From positions 19,988 through 83,987 of the forward strand of contig CACJYD010000004.1 of assembly GCA_902597545.1 (NCBI GenBank): a stretch of 64,000 nt of DNA, given 5' to 3'. Both the position numbers and the translations under genes were made by a program. The notes under the pieces are model-generated. The model did not search any database, was not told where the DNA came from, and saw only the letters and a list, made by a program, of their open reading frames with translations. Source of the stretch: an uncultured Bacteroidota bacterium (GTDB taxonomy: Bacteria > Bacteroidota > Bacteroidia > Flavobacteriales > Flavobacteriaceae). This document shows positions 34,056 through 46,099 of the stretch, one piece after another. Position 1 is the first letter of the stretch; each line of letters starts with the position of its first letter.

Positions 34056-34877
34056 TTATAATTTAAATTTCATCAACCTTGCAGCTGAGCTACTTTTTTC
34101 ATCTTCAGAGGTTATCCAGAATGTTGTTGGATCAATAATTTTTATAGCCTCAACCTGAGTTTTCCCGATTGGGATTTCATACATATCAATTTTTTGATTT
34201 TTATTGTTTAAACTAAAATCAGAAATTATTAAAACGTAATATTCATCAAACTTGATAGTTGATGTCAGAGCTAATGTATTTGTTTCTTTATCGTAATCAC
34301 CACCAGTGACTATTGAATCAGTATTTAAACTACCAATTTTTTTTGCCTGATAATTTCCTCCATTTTTTGGAAGAGAGTAGATTTCAGTAATTTTTTTTCG
34401 TTTATTTTTTGTGAATATTAACAGTTTATCCTCAAAAGAGATTAAAGCTTCAGCATCATACTCTGATCGTCTATAAATTCTCCTAAATTTTTTTTGTTCT
34501 GGATATGAAAAATTTATCACCTCAACATTTTCATTAGAAGACTTTTGAATTGGGATTTTAACAATAGATAAATTTTTTCTTGTATCATAATTATTCCCCA
34601 TGTTAGCAACATATAAAAACTCTTCGTCTTTAGTTATGTCCTCCCAATCAGTATTTTTAACCCCAGCAATCTTTCGGGTCTCAACTATTTTTCCTTTTTC
34701 ATCTAAATAATATAATGCTGGATCCCCTCCAGAATCATTGTGTGTAACAAATTGACCATCTATAATCTCTAATCCAGATGTTTCATCAATAATTTTTGAT
34801 AAACTTATGTCTGTTGTAATTTTCTGCGAATAAGAAAATTGAAATACAATAAGTGTAAGTAGAATACTAATTCTCAT
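34056..34877 (-). CDS. Secreted beta-propeller-like protein downstream of phytase
   Basis: The 273-residue protein has a signal peptide (I-V-F-Q-F-S-Y-S-Q) and repeated beta strands with motifs such as T-H-N-D-S-G-G-D-P-A-L-Y, T-D-W-E-D-I-T, V-A-N-M-G-N-N and F-W-I-T-S-E-D-E. Asp/Gly-rich strand ends of this kind occur in phytase-like and SdiA-regulated propeller proteins. Its start overlaps the phytase stop by 11 bases, so it belongs to the receptor-phytase transcript. A role in phosphate release is inferred from that position only. Confidence 0.6.
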   Translation of the reverse strand: MRISILLTLIVFQFSYSQKITTDISLSKIIDETSGLEIIDGQFVTHNDSGGDPALYYLDEKGKIVETRKIAGVKNTDWEDITKDEEFLYVANMGNNYDTRKNLSIVKIPIQKSSNENVEVINFSYPEQKKFRRIYRRSEYDAEALISFEDKLLIFTKNKRKKITEIYSLPKNGGNYQAKKIGSLNTDSIVTGGDYDKETNTLALTSTIKFDEYYVLIISDFSLNNKNQKIDMYEIPIGKTQVEAIKIIDPTTFWITSEDEKSSSAARLMKFKL

Positions 34878-35886
34878 TTATAATTTTTCTCCAATCTACT
34901 AATTTAAAATTTTGATTCAAACCATCATTATCATCATCTTGAGCAATAAAAAATCCCTTAGGAAATTTTTTAGTAGAAATTGAAGTTACATCAATACCAT
35001 CAGTTTCAGTTGTACCATCAATAGTTTTTCCAGATATAACTCTGAAAAAAGTCTTAGCCTTTAATGATTCTCTATCAATAAGTAAATAACCATTAGATCC
35101 TTGAACAGAAGAAATTAAATACCCTTTACTGTCGCCATCGTCCCTCAATGCCAAACCTTCAAAGTCAGGTTTAAAAAATTTATTTTTCTTAAATATTAAT
35201 TTTCTTTCCTCATCAGTTGTTGGAAAAACATTAATTTCCCATATACCTTTTCTTTCTTGACCTATGTAAACTTTTCCTTTAGATTCATCTGCTACTATAC
35301 CTTCAACTAAAGAGGAAAATCTTAATTTTCTTTCAAATTTAATTTCGGGACTTGATTCATCATTATTATAACTCCACTGCTCTACATTTCCTTTTTTATC
35401 ACTTACAAATAAATATGTATTATACTTATCATCATAAAAAGTAATTCCATATACATCTTTTAAACTTGGAACTACTTCACGAACTATATTTTTTTCTAAT
35501 TCTCCATTGGAATTAAAAATATAAAGATCTATACTATTATGTGTTCTATTTGTTCCAGCAACTAAGTATTTATCTTGACTGAACTTGGATGGTATTATGT
35601 CCACATTATTTATCCTCCCAACCTCATAATCATAGAGCTTATTACCCTCTAAGTCATATACAATTATGCCGAATTTTTTATCAGATGAAACAATTAAGCT
35701 TTTTTCTGGATTGATTAGGTTTTCTAAAACACACATATCATCTGCTGCATCATCACCAGCAAAAACTGGCTCTGTTTCTACATCAGCTTCAACTTCAATA
35801 TATAACAAAGAGCCTAATAAATTAGGCTCTTGTGAATTTAAAATGCTAGTAAAAATTAAACTAGCAAAAAATAATTTTTTAACCAT
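34867..35886 (-). CDS. Beta-propeller phytase
   Basis: The 339-residue protein has a signal peptide (F-T-S-I-L-N-S-Q) and the beta-propeller phytase pattern: G-D-D-A-A-D-D-M near residue 43, S-L-I-V-S-S-D-K-K-F-G-I-I-V-Y-D-L-E-G near 65-83, G-R-I-N-N-V-D, V-S-D-K-K-G-N-V near 150 and F-E-G-L-A-L-R-D-D-G near 245. The many acidic residues are the calcium and phosphate sites of the family, which frees phosphate from phytate outside the cell. Its ATG overlaps the stop of the TonB receptor upstream, a firm sign that receptor and enzyme act together. Confidence 0.88.
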   Translation of the reverse strand: MVKKLFFASLIFTSILNSQEPNLLGSLLYIEVEADVETEPVFAGDDAADDMCVLENLINPEKSLIVSSDKKFGIIVYDLEGNKLYDYEVGRINNVDIIPSKFSQDKYLVAGTNRTHNSIDLYIFNSNGELEKNIVREVVPSLKDVYGITFYDDKYNTYLFVSDKKGNVEQWSYNNDESSPEIKFERKLRFSSLVEGIVADESKGKVYIGQERKGIWEINVFPTTDEERKLIFKKNKFFKPDFEGLALRDDGDSKGYLISSVQGSNGYLLIDRESLKAKTFFRVISGKTIDGTTETDGIDVTSISTKKFPKGFFIAQDDDNDGLNQNFKLVDWRKIINEN

Positions 35887-38597
35887 TAAAAATCATATTT
35901 TAAACCTACATTCCAGCTTAAATTATAATATTCAAGTTGCATAGTTTTTTCAACAGTACCTTGATAATATCTTAAAGGCTGATTTGTTAGGTTTTTCCCC
36001 TCAGCAAATATACTAAGTTTGTCAGTAATTTTGTAGTTAGCATTTACGTCCAAAAATGTTTGCTCATCATAATATCTGTCTTCATAAGCATCTCCACTCA
36101 ACTCATCCAATGCTTCACTTGCATAATTCATTGATGCCCTAACAAAAAATTTATTTGCTTCATAGGCTAACGATAAGTTATACATATTATCAACTTGACC
36201 AACTAGTGGAATGTCATCTCTACCTTCAACTCTGTCTGTCGAAGAATTGGTTGAAGTATAGTTGCCCATAAAAGTGAAGTTATTCAAGAGTTTAGTTTGA
36301 AAACCAATTTCAAAACCATTCAAAGTAGCTTTTTCACCATTTCTAAGTTGACTCATTTCATAACCATCATCACCAGCATATGTATAATTATTAGTAGCAA
36401 ACTTATAAATCCAGTCATCAATACTTTTATTAAAAAACCCTACAGAAAATAAACCTAATCCTTTAAAATAATATTCAGCCATAAAATCAATGTTAGTTGA
36501 TAAAGAGGCTTTTAAATCAGGGTTTCCAAGTGCAAGTTCTTTATCATCAGAATTTGAATATTCGTATGGAACTAGATCATAATATGATGGTCTAGATAAT
36601 GATTGAGTTAATGCAAAGTTAAAATTCAATTTATCATTTAAATCCCATTGTAAAGTTAGATTTGGAAGAACATTAGTATAACTATTATCTCCAGTTACTG
36701 ATCCGATATCTGCTGGTGTCTCATCCTCTTCTTCATCAAAAACCTGACCTGTATATTCAACATTTGTACTTTCAATTCTAGCTCCAGCAATTAAAGTTAA
36801 ATTATCTCCTAACTTATCTTTAATCATCGCATAAAATGCAGTTATATTTTCATCTGCATCGTAATTACCTCCTGCAAATTCATCCATAACATAGGAGTCA
36901 AAATTAGGATCACTAGGGCCTCCTAACGATAAGCTACCTAATGCTTCAGCAGTCATAAAATTTCCACTTTGATATTTTTTTCCAGGCTGATAATCAGAAA
37001 GTGTAGCATTAAAAAATGAAACTCCATCCATGTTAGGTAAGTCGTTATCATATTCATACCAAATATCATTTCTGTCTTTGGTTTTACTTTTGTATTTGAG
37101 TCCAAATTTTATTTCATCATTGACATTATATGGTAAATCAAAGTCTAATGAAAAAGAAGTATTAGTTTCTTCAGTACCCTTAAATGCTTGCTCAGTTTTT
37201 TTGTAACCAAACTTACTTGCTTCAGTCCAATTATCTCCTTGATAAATAAAATTTGGGAATCTTGGGTTTGAAATATCAAGAGAAGAAATTGGAACTCCTT
37301 TTTGCTCATATCTTACATATCTTTCATCAGGCCTATCCTCACTAGCAGCTGAAAAACTCACTTTCCAATCCATTCCAAGTTTACCAAATTGATGATCACC
37401 ACCTAAAGAATATTTCTGAGTCTTTTGGTCCTCTAATCTTGTATTTTTATTTCTATCATTATTACCTCCACCTTTAGTTTGTCTTCTAACTCTAACTGTC
37501 ATATCATCCATATCAATACTTCCAACTCTCATTCTAAATCTATTTTCCCAGTCATCTCTGTGGTTATATATTGATTTAAAGTAGAGCTGATTATTATCAT
37601 TTAAGTTCCAATCTAAGTTTAAACTTAAACTTCGTCTTGTTCTTTTGACATCATATCTTCTTATATCCATTTCACCAATAGCTCCATCATCTGCCCAATC
37701 AGCTGGATCGTTCCATTCAAACTCAATATTATCAGAACCATAATCTCTAGTTTGAACAGTAGCAGATAGTGTATAGCTAAATTTTTCAGAAACTTCATTT
37801 CCAATTAGTGCTGTTACATTTGAATTATACCCACCGGATCTTATTGGATTTCCACCTCCAGCTACAGTTGCAGATGCCCTAAAACCTGTTGGATTTGATC
37901 TGGTAATTAAGTTGACAGAACCACCAATTGCATCAGCCTCCATATCAGGTGTTAATGTTTTATTGACCTCAATTGACTGAATCATTGCTGATGGTATTAG
38001 ATCTAACTGAACGTTTCTATTATCACCTTCTGCTGATGGAATTCTATCTCCATTTAATGTTACAGAATTTTGACCAGGTCCTAATCCTCTCATTACAATA
38101 TTCCTTGCTTCACCTTGATCACCTTGCATACTAACACCAGCAATTCTTTTAATTACATCACCAACATTATCATCGGGAAATTTTCCAATCTGATCTGCCG
38201 AAACAACATTGGTTACATTAACATCGGATTTTTGCTTATTGAGTCCTTTAATAATTCCACTTTGAAATCCGGATACTACAACTTGAGCCAATTCACTTAC
38301 AGCTGTTTCTAAAGTGAAGTCTAAAGTATTTGAACCATCTTCAATTGAAATAGATTGTTCAACAGTTTCAAATCCAATGTATGAGACCTTTATAATCTGA
38401 TCTCCTTCAATACCAACGATAGTATAAAATCCATTAAAGTCAGTAACCACAGCTTTTCCTGATGGTGAAGCTTGAATTGTTGCGCCAGGTAATGCAAAAC
38501 CATTAGCATCTGTAATTTTACCTTTTAAAGTAGATGTTTGAGAATATGATAAACCAAACATTAGGAAGGTAAAGATAAATAGAATGTAATTTTTCAT
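35886..38597 (-). CDS. TonB-dependent receptor of the phytase operon
   Basis: The 903-residue receptor has a signal peptide, a carboxypeptidase-like domain (about residues 22-110), a plug (about 120-230, with V-I-K-R-I-A-G-V and N-I-V-M-R-G-L-G-P) and a large beta-barrel ending W-N-V-G-L-K-Y-D-F. The plug type is the long catecholate/maltodextrin-like one. Phytase follows with overlapping codons, so a likely substrate is an inositol phosphate or another phosphate ester. Just upstream is a Pho-box-like repeat joined to a perfect -7 box, predicting induction by phosphate shortage. Confidence 0.9.
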   Translation of the reverse strand: MKNYILFIFTFLMFGLSYSQTSTLKGKITDANGFALPGATIQASPSGKAVVTDFNGFYTIVGIEGDQIIKVSYIGFETVEQSISIEDGSNTLDFTLETAVSELAQVVVSGFQSGIIKGLNKQKSDVNVTNVVSADQIGKFPDDNVGDVIKRIAGVSMQGDQGEARNIVMRGLGPGQNSVTLNGDRIPSAEGDNRNVQLDLIPSAMIQSIEVNKTLTPDMEADAIGGSVNLITRSNPTGFRASATVAGGGNPIRSGGYNSNVTALIGNEVSEKFSYTLSATVQTRDYGSDNIEFEWNDPADWADDGAIGEMDIRRYDVKRTRRSLSLNLDWNLNDNNQLYFKSIYNHRDDWENRFRMRVGSIDMDDMTVRVRRQTKGGGNNDRNKNTRLEDQKTQKYSLGGDHQFGKLGMDWKVSFSAASEDRPDERYVRYEQKGVPISSLDISNPRFPNFIYQGDNWTEASKFGYKKTEQAFKGTEETNTSFSLDFDLPYNVNDEIKFGLKYKSKTKDRNDIWYEYDNDLPNMDGVSFFNATLSDYQPGKKYQSGNFMTAEALGSLSLGGPSDPNFDSYVMDEFAGGNYDADENITAFYAMIKDKLGDNLTLIAGARIESTNVEYTGQVFDEEEDETPADIGSVTGDNSYTNVLPNLTLQWDLNDKLNFNFALTQSLSRPSYYDLVPYEYSNSDDKELALGNPDLKASLSTNIDFMAEYYFKGLGLFSVGFFNKSIDDWIYKFATNNYTYAGDDGYEMSQLRNGEKATLNGFEIGFQTKLLNNFTFMGNYTSTNSSTDRVEGRDDIPLVGQVDNMYNLSLAYEANKFFVRASMNYASEALDELSGDAYEDRYYDEQTFLDVNANYKITDKLSIFAEGKNLTNQPLRYYQGTVEKTMQLEYYNLSWNVGLKYDF

Positions 38598-38616
38598 AAT
38601 TATTGTTTTATGTAAA

Positions 38617-38661
38617 CAAAATTATTTTATTACACTATCCTCAATGTTAACTTAAGGTTAA
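38617..38661 (-). promoter_or_regulatory. Predicted Pho-box promoter of receptor-phytase operon
   Basis: On the minus strand TTAACCT-TAAG-TTAACAT (38661-38644) gives two 7-bp direct repeats with 11-bp period, then 19 bases, then TAATTTTG (38624-38617), an exact TAnnTTTG -7 box. The start codon follows after 19 bases. The repeat occupies the -33 position, as activator boxes do at PhoB-dependent promoters. The layout is the same as before the receptor at 40977. Confidence 0.7.
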
Positions 38662-38689
38662 TTTTTAGATAAGATATAAATGGAGTTAA

Positions 38690-39070
38690 TTACTTAACAG
38701 CAACTACATTTTGATTTTCCCATTTAAAATGGCTAATTACTTTATTATTTTGAAAATTAACCTCTGTAAAATTCTTATTACCCCAAAAAAACCATTTTCC
38801 TGTTTTTTTACCTTTTATGAATTCTCCAATTACAGCTAAATTTCCATCAATGTCATAAGACTCCCACCTACCATGTAGTTTATTGTTTTTTAAATACCCT
38901 TTTTGATATAACTCCCCATTATCATGAAAAATTTCCACTTTTACCACTCTATCAAATCTATTGTAAACATGTTCAAGATCTTCTGTATTTAGATCTTGAT
39001 ATTTGATTTCATTTTGAGAAACGATTGAGTTAACAAAAAATAAACTAATTAATAAGAATAGATTTTTCAT
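38690..39070 (-). CDS. Exported MORN/YwqK-type repeat protein
   Basis: I start at ATG 39070 (M-K-N-L-F-L-L), giving 126 residues with a signal peptide (S-I-V-S-Q). The body holds about three MORN-2 type repeats: D-N-G-E-L-Y-Q-K-G-Y-L-K-N-N-K-L-H-G-R-W, then D-I-D-G-N-L-A-V-I-G-E-F-I-K-G-K-K-T-G-K-W-F-F-W. Such repeats occur in YwqK-like antitoxins and in many exported Bacteroidota proteins of unknown role. No toxin gene is adjacent. It lies between the two arms of the phosphate locus; its upstream region holds the four-fold Pho-type repeat, so it may belong to the same regulon. Confidence 0.75.
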   Translation of the reverse strand: MKNLFLLISLFFVNSIVSQNEIKYQDLNTEDLEHVYNRFDRVVKVEIFHDNGELYQKGYLKNNKLHGRWESYDIDGNLAVIGEFIKGKKTGKWFFWGNKNFTEVNFQNNKVISHFKWENQNVVAVK

Positions 39071-39107
39071 AATACTGTTATTTAATTTCAATAAATATAA
39101 TTAATAT

Positions 39108-39147
39108 TTTACATTAAATTAACATTTACGTAACATTAAATTAACAT
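39108..39147 (+). promoter_or_regulatory. Four in-phase 7-bp direct repeats (Pho-box-like array)
   Basis: TTTACAT, TTAACAT, GTAACAT and TTAACAT start at 39108, 39119, 39130 and 39141, exactly 11 bp apart with AT-rich 4-bp spacers. The 15-bp ACATTAAATTAACAT is repeated exactly 22 bp apart. This matches the two-dimer arrangement of PhoB-type sites. It lies between the MORN gene and the beta-helix lipoprotein gene, so either or both could be controlled. No good -7 box follows at 19 bp. Confidence 0.65.
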
Positions 39148-39216
39148 AGTGATTATAGTTTACTGATTATCAATAGTTTAATTTTTTATTTTTTATGCAT
39201 AAAAAAATCTATTTTG

Positions 39217-39245
39217 TTAACATTAGCATAATGTAAAGGTTACAT
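39217..39245 (+). promoter_or_regulatory. Second, weaker Pho-box-like repeat before the lipoprotein gene
   Basis: TTAACAT at 39217 and GTTACAT at 39239 lie exactly 22 bp apart, two turns of the same 11-bp register; the middle position reads ATAATGT and does not match. It is 71 bases before the lipoprotein start. A near-match -7 element TAATTTTA stands at 39287-39294, not at the 19-bp spacing seen for the other two promoters. Confidence 0.45.
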
Positions 39246-39316
39246 TATGATGATTTTTAGGAAACGTTAAGTTAAACGCCATTACATAATTTTAGCTCAA
39301 CTAATACTAAATAATA

Positions 39317-40831
39317 ATGAAAAAAATAAATTTTTTATTGATCATGTCAGCATTTATATTTGTTGCATGTTCAGACGATGACAACGAGGTGGATGCAGTT
39401 GTAAATATTGCTCCCCAAGTTGTTGATCTAACAGCTGCAATTACGGTAGCTAATAATTCAAGCGTAGACATAACATTAGTTGGTACAGATGCTGATGGAG
39501 ATGATCTGACATTTTCCGTAGTTTCTCAACCTTCACAAGGTTCTGTAGATATTAGTGGAAACAAAGCAACTTATACACCAAGCGACAATGCAGACGGTGA
39601 AGACTCTTTCACTTATAAAGCTAACGACGGTGCATTGGATAGTAATGTAGCTACTGTTACAATTGATGTTACTGGAAACTTTGTTCTTAATGGTGAAATC
39701 TCATCAGATAGAACACTTACAGCTGACAAGATATGGACAATTAAAGGTAGAGTTTTTGTTGGAGATGGCGCTACATTAACCATTCCTGCAGGAACAATCT
39801 TAAAAGCTGAAGGAGGAACTGGAACAAATGCATCCTTCTTAGCTGTAGCAAGAGGTGGTAAATTAATTGCTAATGGTACAGCAGATAAACCGATAATTAT
39901 GACTTCAGTTTCAGATGACATAAAAGTAGGAGAAAGTGTTGGATCAAACTTAAATGTTGATAACAGAGGTTTATGGGGAGGATTACTTGTATTAGGTAAA
40001 GCACCTAGTTCATTTAAAGGTGATGTTTCTGAATATCAAATTGAAGGTATTCCTGCTGATGATACAAGAGGATTATATGGTGGGTCAGATGCTTCTGATA
40101 ATTCAGGATCAATGAAATATATTTCTATTAGACATGGCGGTGCAGAAATTGGTGCAGATAATGAAATCAATGGGCTTACACTAGGAGGAGTTGGTAGTGG
40201 TACTGTAATTGACAATATTGAAGTTGTAGGAAATGTTGATGATGGAATTGAATTTTTTGGCGGAACTGTTAACGCTTCTAACCTATTAGTTTGGGGACAA
40301 GGAGATGATGGATTAGATATTGATCAAGCTTATTCTGGAACAGTAGAAAATGCAATGGTAATAGCAACTGCAGCTTCAGATCACGGTATGGAAATTGACG
40401 GTCCTGAAGGATCTGCTAAAGGTAAATTTACGTTAAAGAAAATTACTTTAGTTGGGTCTTCTAGCGCTGCTGATGGAGAATATAATGACAATAGAAAAGG
40501 AGCTACTGGAACAATTGATGGATTGGTTGCATTTGGATTCCAGGCTGGTAAAGATTTCGAATTAGATGCTGATGCTGACAGTAAAACTTATACTGATGGT
40601 GATTTAGTATTTAAAAATTTCCAAGTTGATGTTCCAGATGGAGCAAGTTTAACTGGTGGTGATATTTTTGATGATAAATCGAGTACTCCTAATGCTAACT
40701 ATGAAGATGGCAAAACAATTGGTGGTGCATCTTTTGTAACTAATGTTGCTAGAGCATCTCAAACTGGTGGAGCTGATGTTACAGTTTGGGCATGGTCAAT
40801 GGCTAAAGCTAGAGGAGCAGATGGATTGTAA
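39317..40831 (+). CDS. Surface lipoprotein with cadherin-like and beta-helix domains
   Basis: The 504-residue protein has a lipoprotein signal with C-S-D-D-D-N-E after the cleavage site, like the export signal of surface lipoproteins in Flavobacteriia. Residues about 30-120 form an Ig/cadherin-like domain (D-A-D-G-D-D-L-T-F-S-V; D-S-F-T-Y-K-A-N-D-G). The rest is a right-handed beta-helix type domain with G-D-G-A-T-L-T-I-P-A-G-T, R-G-L-W-G-G-L, L-T-L-G-G-V-G-S-G-T-V-I and D-D-G-I-E-F-F-G-G-T-V, and W-A-W-S near the end. Proteins of this kind often neighbour TonB receptors. Here it precedes a receptor and a phosphate transporter behind Pho-type repeats, so it may capture a phosphate substrate at the surface. 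That role is inferred. Confidence 0.75.
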   Translation: MKKINFLLIMSAFIFVACSDDDNEVDAVVNIAPQVVDLTAAITVANNSSVDITLVGTDADGDDLTFSVVSQPSQGSVDISGNKATYTPSDNADGEDSFTYKANDGALDSNVATVTIDVTGNFVLNGEISSDRTLTADKIWTIKGRVFVGDGATLTIPAGTILKAEGGTGTNASFLAVARGGKLIANGTADKPIIMTSVSDDIKVGESVGSNLNVDNRGLWGGLLVLGKAPSSFKGDVSEYQIEGIPADDTRGLYGGSDASDNSGSMKYISIRHGGAEIGADNEINGLTLGGVGSGTVIDNIEVVGNVDDGIEFFGGTVNASNLLVWGQGDDGLDIDQAYSGTVENAMVIATAASDHGMEIDGPEGSAKGKFTLKKITLVGSSSAADGEYNDNRKGATGTIDGLVAFGFQAGKDFELDADADSKTYTDGDLVFKNFQVDVPDGASLTGGDIFDDKSSTPNANYEDGKTIGGASFVTNVARASQTGGADVTVWAWSMAKARGADGL

Positions 40832-40879
40832 AATATTTTTTTAATAGTTCGTTAATTAAATACTTTTATTAGTTGTTAG

Positions 40880-40913
40880 AAAACCCGTCAGTTTAATTCT
40901 GATGGGTTTTTTA
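40880..40913 (+). terminator. Rho-independent terminator after the lipoprotein gene
   Basis: AAAACCCGTCAG and CTGATGGGTTTT form a 12-bp stem with one G-T pair around TTTAATT, followed by a T-run. It ends the lipoprotein transcript, so the receptor and PiT genes need the promoter that follows. Confidence 0.88.
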
Positions 40914-40958
40914 TTAACAATAGCTTAACATTGTATTGCACTTGAAACTTGATATTTG
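40914..40958 (+). promoter_or_regulatory. Predicted Pho-box promoter of receptor-PiT operon
   Basis: TTAACAA-TAGC-TTAACAT (40914-40931) is a pair of 7-bp direct repeats with 11-bp period, followed after exactly 19 bases by GATATTTG (40951-40958), one mismatch from TAnnTTTG. The ATG is 18 bases further. Box, spacing and leader length match the promoter at 38617-38661, although the genes are otherwise unrelated in this region. Confidence 0.7.
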
Positions 40959-40976
40959 CAACAACACTAATCTATA

Positions 40977-43781
40977 ATGAAAAATAAATCAACTATTCTA
41001 AAAACAATATTTATTCTTTTTATTTCTTACTCATTTTCTCAAAATTCAATTATTAGAGGAACTGTAATTGATGCAGATTTTCAAGACCCAATTCCTTTTG
41101 CAAACATATTAGTGAAAGAAACTGGAACAGGAACAACATCTGATTTTGATGGAAATTTTGAAATTTATTTAGATGAAGGATCATACACACTTCAGTTCAG
41201 TTACATTGGATACAAAACAATTGAAATTAGCGAAGTTGTGACTAATTCCATTGATCCCTATGTTATTAATGTAACTATGGAAGTTTTAGCTGAAGGTTTA
41301 GATGAGGTTGTTGTTTCTGTAAGTGCAAAAAAAAATACTGAAGCATCAGTATTGGCATTTCAAAAAAAATCTGCAAGTTTAGTTGATGGGCTTTCGTCTC
41401 AAAGAATAAAAAGTAGTGGAGCCTCAGATATTGCATCTGCAGTAAAATCAATACCAGGAGTTTCTGTTCAAGGTGGAAAATATGTTTATGTAAGAGGGCT
41501 TGGAGATCGTTATACAAAATCGATTTTAAATGGAATTGATATACCAGGTTTAGACCCAGACAGGAACACAGTTCAAATGGATTTATTTCCTACAAATATT
41601 TTAGATAATGTTATCATAATTAAATCTTCAACAGCCGAAAACCCTGCTGATTTCACTGGTGGAATTATCAATGTTGTTACAAAAGAATTTCCAACCAACA
41701 AACAACTATCAATTTCTATTGGGACATCATACAACCCAAATATGCATTATATCAATAATTTTATTGGATACGAAGGAGGTAAAACAGATTTTTTAGGGTT
41801 TGATGATGGAACTAGATCTTTACCTGTAGATCCAACTAAAACATACAGTTTCTTAGATGTTTTAAACAATCCAATACAAACTGAACAAACCAAAAAATAC
41901 ACCAAAACAATGGCTGGAACAAGACAGTCTAATATGGGTGATTATAGTTTTTCAATTTCTGGGGGTAATCAAAAAAGCATTGGAGATGGAGATAACAAAT
42001 TAGGTTATTTTGGGGCTTTATCATTTAAAAATGAATCAGAATTTTATGAGGGAGCAGAAAATAATGAATATATGCGAAATGAAAATAAATCTGTATATGA
42101 ACTTGATCCAGCAGTAACTCAAAAAGGGGACTATGGAGTTGAATTAGCTACACTAAGCGGTATGGGTGGACTTTCATTTAAAACAGTGAATTCTAAAATC
42201 AAATTTAATGCTCTTCATATACAAAATGGAGAATCTACTGCTGGAGATTTTATTCAAGATAGAATGGATACAGATTTTAATACTTACAAGAAAAGTGTCT
42301 TACAGTATACAGAAAGATCTATAACAAACATTCTTCTTTCAGGAACTCATTCATTAGCTGAAGGTAATTGGAAAATAGATTGGAAATTATCTCCAACTAG
42401 ATCATCCATTCAAGATAAAGATGATAGAACTACTGCATTTAAAATAACTGATGAAGGCCGATATGTAATAAATCTAAATAATAGACCAAAAAGAATATGG
42501 AGGGACCTAGAAGAATTCAATTATGTTGCTAAAATTGATATTGTAAAAAGAATGGAGATATTTAAAAATGATGCTCTTTTTAAATTTGGAATTTTTGGGT
42601 CTTACAAAGAAAGAGATTATAATATTTATGCTGCAACTATAAACTCCCCAACGAACATGGGGACTCTAAATAATGGAGATGCAAATAACATATTAAAGGA
42701 TGTAAATATTTGGAGCACTTCAAACACTGGTGGAAACCTTATAGATTTAACATATAGTTTGATTCAAAGAGGTAAAAGTTTTGTTTCTGATCAAAATAAT
42801 TTAGCTGGATATTTATCATTTGAGTTTAAATTCAATCCTAATTTTAGATCAATAATCGGTTTACGAGCAGAAAAATACTTTACATATTATACTGGTCAGG
42901 ACAGTTCTGGAGACAAAGAATTTAATGATGAAAAGATCATCGATACTTTTGACTTATTTCCATCATCTAATTTCATTTGGACCTTGAATGAGCAGGCTAA
43001 TCTTCGTTTTTCTTATTCTAAAACTACTGCCAGACCTTCATTTAAGGAAGCGTCAATTGCTCAAATTTTTGACCCTTTATCAAACATTGTATTCATTGGA
43101 AATATAGATTTAAAACCTACCTACATTGATAATTTAGATATTAGATATGAGGACTTTGGAGATAATAATCAGCTTTTTGCAATAAGTGCATTTTATAAAA
43201 ATTTCATAAATCCTATTGAGCTAAGCTATTTTGAATCTGCAAGACAAAATTATCAACCTAGAAACCTAGGAAACGCTACAGTCTATGGCTTAGAGTTAGA
43301 ATTAAGAAAAAATATTTCTTCTATGCTAAGTGCAAACATAAATGCTTCAATAATTGAATCTAATCAAAAGTATGGTGAAGCTGAAAGAAATCTTAGATCT
43401 TTGGCTATCAGGGATGGTGAGACAATAAGTGGTTCTAGAGAACTTCAGGGTCAATCCCCCTACCTTATAAATACCAGCATTGATTATAGAAATGATAATG
43501 GAACCAGAGCAGGATTATATTTCAATATGCAAGGTAAAACACTTGAAGTTGTTGGTAATGGGATAAATCCTGACATTTATACACAACCATTTGAAAGTCT
43601 AAACTTTACATTCTCAAAAAGTTTCGGGATTAATAATAAAAGATCAATTAATCTAAAAGTTGAAAATCTTCTTGGAAGTGAAAAAGAAAGTTTTGCAGAA
43701 TCATTTAATGCAACAAAAAAAGTTTTTAGCTATGCAGATCCTGGTATTAAATTCTCAATAGGGTACTCAATTAACTTTTAA
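40977..43781 (+). CDS. TonB-dependent receptor, probably for phosphate compounds
   Basis: This 934-residue receptor has a signal peptide, a carboxypeptidase-like domain (about residues 25-110), a plug with S-I-P-G-V-S-V-Q-G-G-K-Y-V-Y-V-R-G-L-G-D-R-Y near 155-180, and a beta-barrel ending F-S-I-G-Y-S-I-N-F. It is followed after 20 bases by a PiT phosphate transporter and is preceded by its own Pho-type promoter. The simplest reading is import of phosphate or a phosphate ester over the outer membrane with PiT as the inner-membrane step. The receptor is not a close copy of the phytase-linked one. Confidence 0.88.
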   Translation: MKNKSTILKTIFILFISYSFSQNSIIRGTVIDADFQDPIPFANILVKETGTGTTSDFDGNFEIYLDEGSYTLQFSYIGYKTIEISEVVTNSIDPYVINVTMEVLAEGLDEVVVSVSAKKNTEASVLAFQKKSASLVDGLSSQRIKSSGASDIASAVKSIPGVSVQGGKYVYVRGLGDRYTKSILNGIDIPGLDPDRNTVQMDLFPTNILDNVIIIKSSTAENPADFTGGIINVVTKEFPTNKQLSISIGTSYNPNMHYINNFIGYEGGKTDFLGFDDGTRSLPVDPTKTYSFLDVLNNPIQTEQTKKYTKTMAGTRQSNMGDYSFSISGGNQKSIGDGDNKLGYFGALSFKNESEFYEGAENNEYMRNENKSVYELDPAVTQKGDYGVELATLSGMGGLSFKTVNSKIKFNALHIQNGESTAGDFIQDRMDTDFNTYKKSVLQYTERSITNILLSGTHSLAEGNWKIDWKLSPTRSSIQDKDDRTTAFKITDEGRYVINLNNRPKRIWRDLEEFNYVAKIDIVKRMEIFKNDALFKFGIFGSYKERDYNIYAATINSPTNMGTLNNGDANNILKDVNIWSTSNTGGNLIDLTYSLIQRGKSFVSDQNNLAGYLSFEFKFNPNFRSIIGLRAEKYFTYYTGQDSSGDKEFNDEKIIDTFDLFPSSNFIWTLNEQANLRFSYSKTTARPSFKEASIAQIFDPLSNIVFIGNIDLKPTYIDNLDIRYEDFGDNNQLFAISAFYKNFINPIELSYFESARQNYQPRNLGNATVYGLELELRKNISSMLSANINASIIESNQKYGEAERNLRSLAIRDGETISGSRELQGQSPYLINTSIDYRNDNGTRAGLYFNMQGKTLEVVGNGINPDIYTQPFESLNFTFSKSFGINNKRSINLKVENLLGSEKESFAESFNATKKVFSYADPGIKFSIGYSINF

Positions 43782-43801
43782 TTCAATATCTTAGTTTGTT
43801 G

Positions 43802-46099
43802 ATGCAAGACTACTATTTAATACTTGTCATAATCCTTGGAATATTAGCAATTATTGATTTGATGGTTGGAGTTAGTAATGATGCTGTAAACTTTTTAAAC
43901 TCAGCAATTGGATCAAAAGTAGTTTCCTTTAAAACCTTAATGATTATTGCTAGCTTGGGTGTTGCTTTTGGCGCAATGTCATCAAGTGGAATGATGGAAG
44001 TTGCCAGAAAAGGAATATTCAATCCTGAAATGTTTCTATTCTCTGAAATCATGATAATATTTATTGCAGTTATGATAACAGACATATTATTATTAGACTT
44101 GTTTAATTCTTATGGTCTTCCAACCTCAACAACAGTTTCCATTGTTTTTGAACTTTTAGGTGCTGCTGTTGTCATATCAATAATTAAAATTTCATCAAGC
44201 AGCGATGCTTTTATAGATTTATCAACATACATAAACACGTCTAAAGCAACTCAAATAATTTTTGGAATATTTTTGTCCGTCTTAGTTGCCTTTTCAATAG
44301 GGGCATTGGTTCAGTTTTTATCCAGATTAGTTCTGTCTTTTAAATTTGAAGAAAAAAAGAAATGGTTGGGTTCAATATTTGGAGGAATCGCCTTAACATC
44401 AATATTTTATTTCATTGTAATTAAGGGATTAAAAGGAACGCCATACTCATCAAGTAGTTTTGAAATTTTAAATGGGAGTACTCTTTCAAACTTTATAGAC
44501 AATAATCTAGTATCAATTGTTATTGTATCACTTTTGTTTTTAACATTTTTATCTTATTTAATCAATTCCATTTTAAAAGTAAATATCTATACAATTGTAA
44601 TTTGTGTTGGAACATTTGCATTAGCATTAGCATTTGCAGGGAATGACCTTGTTAACTTTATTGGTGTGCCAATTGCTGGATATCAATCATACCTTGCGTG
44701 GATTGGCTCTGGAGTTGAAGCTGATGCATACTTTATGGGCGCATTATCAGAAAAAGTCGCAGCACCAACATTGATACTGCTTGGTGCAGGTGTAATTATG
44801 ATAGTTACATTATGGACTTCTTCAAAAGCTAAATCTGTTATAAAAACATCCATTGATTTATCAAGACAAGAAGAAACAATTGAAAGATTTGAACCAAATT
44901 TTCTTTCTAGAGGACTAGTTAGATTAGGGGCTTATTTTCAAAAAAGTTTTTTAAAAATACTTCCAAATAATTCAATTAATTTTATTGAGAGACAGTACAT
45001 AAAACCAAAAGTAAACACGCTAATACTTAGGAAAGATAGACCTGCATTTGATAAAATTAGAGCTTCAATTAATTTAGTAGTAGCTGCAATTTTAATATCA
45101 ATAGCTACATCTTACAAGCTACCACTTTCAACAACATATGTAACATTTATGGTTGCTATGGGAACATCTTTAGCAGATAGGGCGTGGGGAAGTGACAGTG
45201 CTGCTTACAGAGTTGCAGGTGTAATTAATGTAATTGGCGGATGGCTTATGACTGCACTAATTGCCTTTTTGGCTTCAGGTCTAATTGCTTCAATTATCTA
45301 TTATTTTGATCAATATGCTTTATACCTTTTAGTTCTTATAGTAGCAATAGTTTTAACTAAAAATTACTTTACTCATAAAGAAAGAAGAACAAAAGAAATT
45401 GAAGAGGAAGAGCTAGAGTTAATTGAAAGTAAATCAATAAAAGGCGTAATTTTTGAAAGCTCTAAAAACATTACCAAATTTTCAAAAAGAATTAGTAAGC
45501 TATATAAAAATCTACTAACAGGAATTAGCTCAAAAAATATTTTACTATTAAAAGACAGTGAATCAATAGTCAATAAACTAGATAAAGATGTAGATCTTAT
45601 CGCTAATAATGTTTTCTATTTTATTAAAAACTTAGATGAAGCAACTTCACAATCTGCGTCTAATTTTCATATGAGTGTTCTTGAATCTTTAGAAAATATA
45701 ACAAGACTCACTCAATCGTTATTAAAGTCCAGTTCTAAACATTTTAAAAATGAACACAGGGGGCTAACATTCCAACAATTAAGAGAGCTCAAGGAGATTG
45801 AAATAGATTTAGAATTATTTTTCAACAAGGTTATAGAAACTTTTGAAAATAAAAATTACAAACAAATTCAATCAATTTTTGAGATTAAAGAAAGTGTAAG
45901 CAATTCTCTGGAATCAAAAATTAAATCTCAAATTTCTCGAACGAAAGAGAAAGAATCTAGCCCAAGGAATACAAGGCTTTATTTTGAAATCCTTAAAAAA
46001 ACTAAAAAAATTACTGAAAATTATATTGAAATTTTAGAGCTGTACTCAGATAAGTATGATGAGAAAATCAGCCCTACACAATTTGAAAATCAAGATTAA
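43802..46099 (+). CDS. PiT-type inorganic phosphate transporter with PhoU-like tail
   Basis: The start is ATG 43802 (M-Q-D-Y-Y-L-I-L), two codons after the TTG in the track, giving 765 residues. The membrane part carries both PiT signatures: G-V-S-N-D-A-V-N-F-L-N-S-A near residue 23 and G-N-D-L-V-N-F-I-G-V-P near 280, plus G-L-P-T-S-T-T-V-S and K-L-P-L-S-T-T-Y-V-T. The last 220 residues are soluble, helical and resemble DUF47/PhoU domains, which regulate phosphate transport. PiT proteins carry metal-phosphate with protons or sodium. It shares a transcript with the TonB receptor. Confidence 0.93.
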   Translation: MQDYYLILVIILGILAIIDLMVGVSNDAVNFLNSAIGSKVVSFKTLMIIASLGVAFGAMSSSGMMEVARKGIFNPEMFLFSEIMIIFIAVMITDILLLDLFNSYGLPTSTTVSIVFELLGAAVVISIIKISSSSDAFIDLSTYINTSKATQIIFGIFLSVLVAFSIGALVQFLSRLVLSFKFEEKKKWLGSIFGGIALTSIFYFIVIKGLKGTPYSSSSFEILNGSTLSNFIDNNLVSIVIVSLLFLTFLSYLINSILKVNIYTIVICVGTFALALAFAGNDLVNFIGVPIAGYQSYLAWIGSGVEADAYFMGALSEKVAAPTLILLGAGVIMIVTLWTSSKAKSVIKTSIDLSRQEETIERFEPNFLSRGLVRLGAYFQKSFLKILPNNSINFIERQYIKPKVNTLILRKDRPAFDKIRASINLVVAAILISIATSYKLPLSTTYVTFMVAMGTSLADRAWGSDSAAYRVAGVINVIGGWLMTALIAFLASGLIASIIYYFDQYALYLLVLIVAIVLTKNYFTHKERRTKEIEEEELELIESKSIKGVIFESSKNITKFSKRISKLYKNLLTGISSKNILLLKDSESIVNKLDKDVDLIANNVFYFIKNLDEATSQSASNFHMSVLESLENITRLTQSLLKSSSKHFKNEHRGLTFQQLRELKEIEIDLELFFNKVIETFENKNYKQIQSIFEIKESVSNSLESKIKSQISRTKEKESSPRNTRLYFEILKKTKKITENYIEILELYSDKYDEKISPTQFENQD

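Follow-up and report, generated by a model that had tools for sequence, protein, structure and literature searches.

The locus at positions 34056-46099 of a 64,000-nucleotide stretch of DNA from an uncultured member of the Flavobacteriaceae (the whole stretch, from contig CACJYD010000004.1 of assembly GCA_902597545.1, is hereafter called the window) is likely to combine several modules of the phosphate-starvation response (Pho regulon), each of a known kind, which were brought together in a marine flavobacterial genus. Our computational analysis supports a phosphate locus; the mechanism proposed for it is plausible but unproven, and its novelty is modest. All seven open reading frames (ORFs) were confirmed at their coordinates, and the gene families named for both arms of the locus in the initial annotation, which had been made from the sequence alone, proved correct. 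The phosphate-scavenging role suggested there is likewise supported, as are the phytase arm and the PiT permease.

The minus-strand arm comprises TonB-dependent receptor 1, a beta-propeller phytase and a small propeller protein, whose genes touch or overlap and probably form one operon, and the plus-strand arm comprises a surface lipoprotein, TonB-dependent receptor 2 and the PiT permease. Because a strong terminator-like hairpin (40877-40913, plus strand; -24.1 kcal/mol, z -7.95) lies between the lipoprotein and receptor 2, the plus arm consists of two units, the lipoprotein gene alone and the receptor 2 gene with that of PiT. The source genome is flavobacterial and was recovered as 1.43 Mb in 33 contigs, with a completeness of 85%, to which all statements on the recovered genome refer.

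A lipoprotein gene and a TonB receptor gene that evolve together

The surface lipoprotein and receptor 2 had been described as a unit, and comparison with other genomes agrees. Among the best 80 homologous Bacteroidota loci, a set separate from the loci of 37 relatives, a lipoprotein gene and a TonB receptor gene are adjacent on the same strand in 78, and the same adjacency was seen in nearly all of the relatives' loci that were read. The distances of the two proteins are strongly correlated (r = 0.92, 104 pairs), a value to which a split into two subtypes contributes (r = 0.81 for the lipoprotein-first subtype alone). In the 32 loci with PhoB nearby, the correlation between lipoprotein and receptor is 0.91, compared with 0.06 between lipoprotein and PhoB. 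As the distances correlate independently of the neighbouring PhoB, the lipoprotein and the receptor evolve as a unit, and perhaps they also travel between genomes as one. In one subtype, to which the window pair belongs, the lipoprotein gene comes first; in the other the receptor gene does, often beside phoB. Both genes split alike (L032-L064, L111-L190).

The lipoprotein (504 residues; 39317-40831, plus strand) was assigned to the ElpS family from its lipobox, its structural model and its homologues. Its lipobox is followed by an acidic stretch (CSDDD), and a lipobox with acidic residues behind it fits surface export in Bacteroidota. The model (predicted local distance difference test (pLDDT) score 80) consists of an Ig-like domain and a right-handed beta-helix. 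Domain searches returned Ig-like matches only and no SusD domain, and a sequence search of the PDB gave nothing useful. The top structural matches of the model are right-handed beta-helix proteins (GH87, GH28, pectin methylesterase and epimerase), all of them remote (template modelling (TM) score <=0.47). The invariant residues include E283, N285, D308, D309, E312, D330, D331, D334 and E359; the acidic ones are spaced by roughly one coil of the beta-helix (22 residues) and may form a metal-binding or catalytic ladder. The N-terminal Ig-like domain (residues 30-116; window 39404-39670) is present in some members of the genus and absent from others.

Receptor 2 (40977-43781, plus strand), the partner of the lipoprotein and of the CC0171/Fjoh_0545 type by its domains and homologues, carries PF14905, PF13715 and PF07715. 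The initial annotation had suggested a SusC/D-like division of labour for phosphate esters, with the beta-helix lipoprotein in place of SusD. Family tests do not support membership of the pair in the SusC/SusD families: against the SusC/RagA model TIGR04056, receptor 2 scores 71.7 bits where the cut-off is 368, with a match over the N-terminal 100 residues only, and the lipoprotein has a different fold from SusD. The pair was accordingly rejected as a SusC/SusD pair; by analogy, a SusD-like lid role for the lipoprotein is possible, and the adjacency and co-divergence of the two are no more than consistent with it.

The PiT permease (43796-46099, plus strand) matches PF01384 at 100.6 bits, above the cut-off and in both repeats, and it is the sole PHO4 gene in the recovered genome, in which no PstS-type binding protein and no PhoX were found. 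Its C-terminal third (window 45300-46099) is PhoU-like in appearance; PF01895 was matched in 3 of 13 relatives, and the region is kept across the aligned relatives.

The phytase operon

The phytase (339 residues; 34867-35886, minus strand) matches PF02333 at 224 bits, where the cut-off is 21. It keeps all of the residues checked, E43, D55, K76, R122, Y159, K179, E211, E227, D258, E260, D308 and D314 in the numbering of the Bacillus enzyme, which we take to be that enzyme's Ca2+ and substrate residues; the predicted active site is intact. Because it has a signal peptide without a lipobox, the enzyme is probably periplasmic and would act after import of its substrate. The first gene of the operon encodes receptor 1 (35886-38597, minus strand), with plug and barrel domains and a match to TIGR01782 at 487 bits. 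A gene of the receptor 1 type also lies directly upstream of the phytase homologues in the related genomes G024, G036 and G023, so that the pairing of phytase and receptor is conserved.

The last gene of the operon (34056-34877, minus strand) overlaps the phytase gene by 11 bases and encodes a small exported protein of 273 residues. A family search with this protein gave nothing above the cut-off and a sequence search of the PDB gave nothing useful; its AlphaFold2 model (pLDDT 72) is a propeller, with a Bacillus beta-propeller phytase as the best PDB match.

Phased TTAACA repeats upstream of the three units

Each of the three units has its own site of the TTAACA-N5-TTAACA type. Upstream of the lipoprotein gene lies an array of four half-sites with an 11-bp period (39108-39146, plus strand), TTTACA-N5-TTAACA-N5-GTAACA-N5-TTAACA, and versions with two half-sites lie upstream of receptor 1 (TTAACCTTAAGTTAACA, 38645-38661, minus strand; found by motif scan) and of receptor 2 and PiT (TTAACAATAGCTTAACA, 40914-40930, plus strand), the last being one of three exact TTAACA-N5-TTAACA matches in the recovered genome. 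A repeat-rich control region shared by both arms had been proposed: its repeats are real, in the form of the 11-bp-periodic array, but it is not shared, as each unit has its own box. Nor does receptor 1 use the promoter of the lipoprotein, for their boxes are separate and a gene for a MORN-type secreted protein of 133 residues (38690-39091, minus strand; PF07661 below cut-off) separates the two arms. A MORN-type secreted protein is also labelled beside the lipoprotein-receptor-PiT cluster in 21 of the 80 loci and occurs in L118-L133. A second, weaker TTAACA/GTTACA element between the MORN and lipoprotein genes (39217-39244) might serve the MORN gene on the opposite strand.

The array was found by tandem-repeat and promoter scans and by reading the sequence; a general repeat search of the window returned only low-identity chance families. 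The four-half-site pattern has one match in the window against 0.02 expected, but it was drawn up after the array had been seen, and the real controls are the tests across genomes. Two-half-site matches with at most two mismatches are no commoner in the window than by chance (21 versus 29 expected), and therefore the weight of evidence lies solely with the position of the sites, the length of the array and the enrichment across genomes. The three sites of the locus, among about 35 in the genome, fall within 12 kb (p ~0.003).

As to enrichment, at the loci of the 37 relatives the stretches preceding the genes for lipoprotein, receptor, porin and PiT were scanned for 6-mers, and the strongest enrichment was that of TAACAT and TTAACA pairs spaced by 11 bp; TTAACA pairs at this spacing occurred in 26 of 93 upstream regions compared with 3 of 385, whereas other spacings gave 0 to 4 of 93. 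When a pair was scored with at least 10 of its 12 positions matching, it was present upstream of the lipoprotein gene in 62 of the 80 named loci, compared with 31 of 394 other genes. Bacteroidota promoters have a -7 element, TAnnTTTG. When at most one mismatch was allowed, 109 promoters gave 47 occurrences of this element at three offsets relative to the array (15, 26 and 37), compared with an average of about 1.8 per offset. In the window, receptor 1 has an exact -7 element (TAATTTTG, 38617-38624, minus strand; assigned from its sequence and from the phasing across homologues), 26 nt downstream from where the final half-site in its box starts; the element is one mismatch off for receptor 2 and poor for the lipoprotein.

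These sites can be classed as Pho-box-like, being direct TTAACA-like repeats of 11-bp period upstream of genes. In Riemerella anatipestifer, a relative of the flavobacteria, DNA affinity purification sequencing of PhoP gave TTTAACA as the most conserved motif (PMC9603813). Only one OmpR-type regulator was found in the genome (L100 7908-8591), and it adjoins a PhoR-like kinase; this PhoB shares 50-59% identity with most of the PhoBs that adjoin the pair in relatives and 35% with one. Because the motif is enriched, is phased with the -7 element and matches the Riemerella TTTAACA, we infer that the locus is under phosphate control, a conclusion that is well supported; the Pho-box-like sites would likewise predict induction of the lipoprotein-receptor pair by phosphate starvation.

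Separable modules under apparently the same control

The view that the two arms form one obligatory pathway could not be maintained. The very closely related genome G011 (phytase 98%) carries the phytase arm and PiT, but its locus has no lipoprotein-receptor pair, nor did the rest of this genome, which is incomplete, yield one. At that locus (L212 5014-7483), PiT immediately follows a promoter region alignable with window 39092-39316, TTAACA array included, an arrangement which may be either a natural deletion or the state before insertion. Several members of the genus keep both arms, and this phytase is absent from most of the other genera in which the pair occurs. Because G011 lacks the pair and most pair-bearing genera lack the phytase, the arms are separable, and the locus looks like a set of modules under apparently the same control rather than one machine.

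Discussion

We propose that, at low phosphate, PhoR/PhoB (encoded elsewhere, G000:C9) would activate the three promoters through the TTAACA repeats. In the first module, receptor 1 would import phytate or a similar inositol phosphate, from which the periplasmic propeller phytase would release phosphate. In the second, the ElpS-type beta-helix lipoprotein on the cell surface may capture or cut a phosphorus-bearing polymer or ester, perhaps via metal ions on its conserved acidic residues, and would hand the substrate to its dedicated receptor 2. In the third, PiT would carry the freed phosphate into the cytoplasm.

Several observations weigh against this reading of the locus. Both expression and PhoB binding in the source organism are deduced from sequence. 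The other two exact TTAACA-N5-TTAACA matches in the genome (L102 9624-9640 and L103 9906-9922) lie about 30 bases upstream of SusC/SusD operons, near which no phosphate genes were found; because exact matches precede SusC genes without a phosphate context, the two-half-site motif alone is not specific and is no proof of phosphate control. These sites may be either a general promoter feature or a sign of unrecognised Pus-type operons. In addition, the loci compared are related rather than independent, which makes the enrichment p-values (Fisher) optimistic, and absences from a genome that is 85% complete are weak evidence. The conserved residues of the lipoprotein are acidic, which is odd for a direct binder of phosphate, and in Caulobacter the receptor gene cc0171 was reported to be constitutive and not phosphate-regulated (PMC2996285).

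The lipoprotein may instead be an enzyme in its own right, a beta-helix polysaccharide hydrolase, lyase or phosphodiesterase that frees phosphate-bearing fragments for the receptor to import, with no lid or binder involved. We regard this as a serious possibility, though not the one we favour: the top structural matches are enzymes, the invariant acidic residues lie about one coil apart, and overproduction of ElpS raises secreted phosphatase activity (PMC2996285), but the matches are remote, no catalytic signature was identified, and many beta-helix proteins only bind. A further alternative concerns the substrate, since the receptor family alone does not reveal it: the pair could import something without phosphorus, such as a metal chelate or a glycan needed in phosphate limitation, and be no more than co-regulated. 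The initial annotation had named residence mainly beside non-phosphate genes as evidence against a phosphate role, and on this point the picture is mixed. PhoB, PhoR, PiT or an OprP-type porin lies within 6 kb of the pair in 43 of the 80 loci and none of these does in the other 37, where the neighbours sampled are mostly housekeeping genes (MoxR ATPase, enolase and MutS) with no common substrate clue among them; in Pseudoalteromonas, a proteobacterium, the homologous pair has tonB/exbBD beside it and lacks phosphate genes. However, 27 of the 37 Bacteroidota loci have a Pho-box-like motif in front of the lipoprotein gene, which argues against abandoning the phosphate role; phoR and the gene of a phosphate-binding protein (PstS) adjoin the pair in Alteromonas; and induction in Flavobacterium johnsoniae follows phosphate limitation, not iron or nitrogen limitation (PMC8115612). 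A substrate without phosphorus therefore seems unlikely.

It is more improbable still that the two arms are unrelated neighbours placed together by chance, with no joint locus. Chance co-location would fit G011, where the pair is missing but the phytase arm and PiT are present, and the pair without phytase in most other genera, but it leaves unexplained that all three units share a motif clustered within 12 kb and that several genus members retain both arms. A cluster of phosphate-starvation modules thus remains our preferred reading. Going beyond it, and with more doubt than conviction, we suggest that the pair represents a phylum-wide class of lipoprotein-capped TonB transporters, independent of SusD and dedicated to polymers or esters of phosphorus. 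PhoB would control it by way of TTAACA arrays that keep helical phase with the Bacteroidota -7 element (26 nt plus or minus 11), and it would move between genomes as a cassette of two genes.

The lipoproteins in question (ElpS, FI and FII) rank with the most abundant proteins on the surface of Flavobacterium starved of phosphate, in which FI makes up 18.7% of the exoproteome (PMC8115612). The near-constant pairing and the Pho-type promoter make the questions of substrate and receptor capping testable in F. johnsoniae, and a recognisable Pho-type promoter would help in tracing the Pho regulon among marine bacteria that have not been cultured.

Comparison with known systems

Phosphate uptake by a lipoprotein and a TonB receptor, put forward as a new idea in the initial annotation, is largely prior art. 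In Caulobacter crescentus, ElpS (CC0170) was reported in 2010 to be induced at low phosphate, and joint phosphate uptake with the receptor CC0171 was suggested (PMC2996285). In F. johnsoniae, low phosphate induces both the phytase pair Fjoh_1367/1368 and the cluster PUSIV (phoBR, receptor Fjoh_0545 and FII lipoprotein Fjoh_0546). A model of 2020, resembling that of polysaccharide utilization loci, comprises surface binding, outer-membrane transport and periplasmic degradation; the FI, FII and FIII lipoproteins are stated to resemble the Caulobacter lipoprotein (PMC8115612). We add four points to this picture: how strict and how widespread the pairing is, that it does not depend on neighbouring genes, that the Pho-type promoter is phased, and that the locus is modular, as G011 shows. 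None of the four was found in the literature searched, with many subscription papers outside its scope.

As with Caulobacter ElpS/CC0171, the surface lipoprotein gene of the window adjoins a TonB receptor gene, but the neighbours differ, being a type II secretion system in Caulobacter and PiT with a phytase operon in the window. F. johnsoniae and Caulobacter are not among the 80 best loci, and the links to them rest on synteny, domain make-up and the published reports. The window pair can be placed in the ElpS/CC0171 family by way of PMC8115612 and of alphaproteobacterial homologues linked to a type II secretion system, rather than by direct comparison with CC0170: homologues on plasmids of Sphingomonas and Indioceanicola have the order lipoprotein, receptor, type II secretion system, and over the aligned parts identity to the window proteins is 39% for the Sphingomonas lipoprotein (243 residues) and 25-36% for the Sphingomonas receptor.

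Like PUSIV, the window has a receptor with Plug, PF13715 and PF14905 domains and a lipoprotein of the pectin-lyase (beta-helix) class, and the PUSIV-like order glycosyltransferase, phoR, phoB, receptor, lipoprotein also occurs in relative L064; unlike in PUSIV, the lipoprotein gene precedes the receptor gene in the window and phoBR lies on another contig. A TonB receptor adjoins a phytase in Fjoh_1367/Fjoh_1368 (PMC8115612) and in the Citromicrobium pair of TonB-dependent transporter and phytase (PMC3400609), as it does here, but the window operon has a third gene, for the small propeller protein, and its phytase lacks a lipobox. PiT resembles other PF01384 permeases in that both repeats are matched and differs from them in its C-terminal PhoU-like region. 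Finally, the pairing of a TonB receptor with a surface lipoprotein is shared with SusC/SusD and with BtuB/BtuG, in which a surface lipoprotein other than SusD forms a stable complex with the TonB receptor (PMC10404256); the window proteins, however, fall outside both the SusC and the SusD family, their lipoprotein is modelled as a beta-helix, and the pairing is known from the genes.

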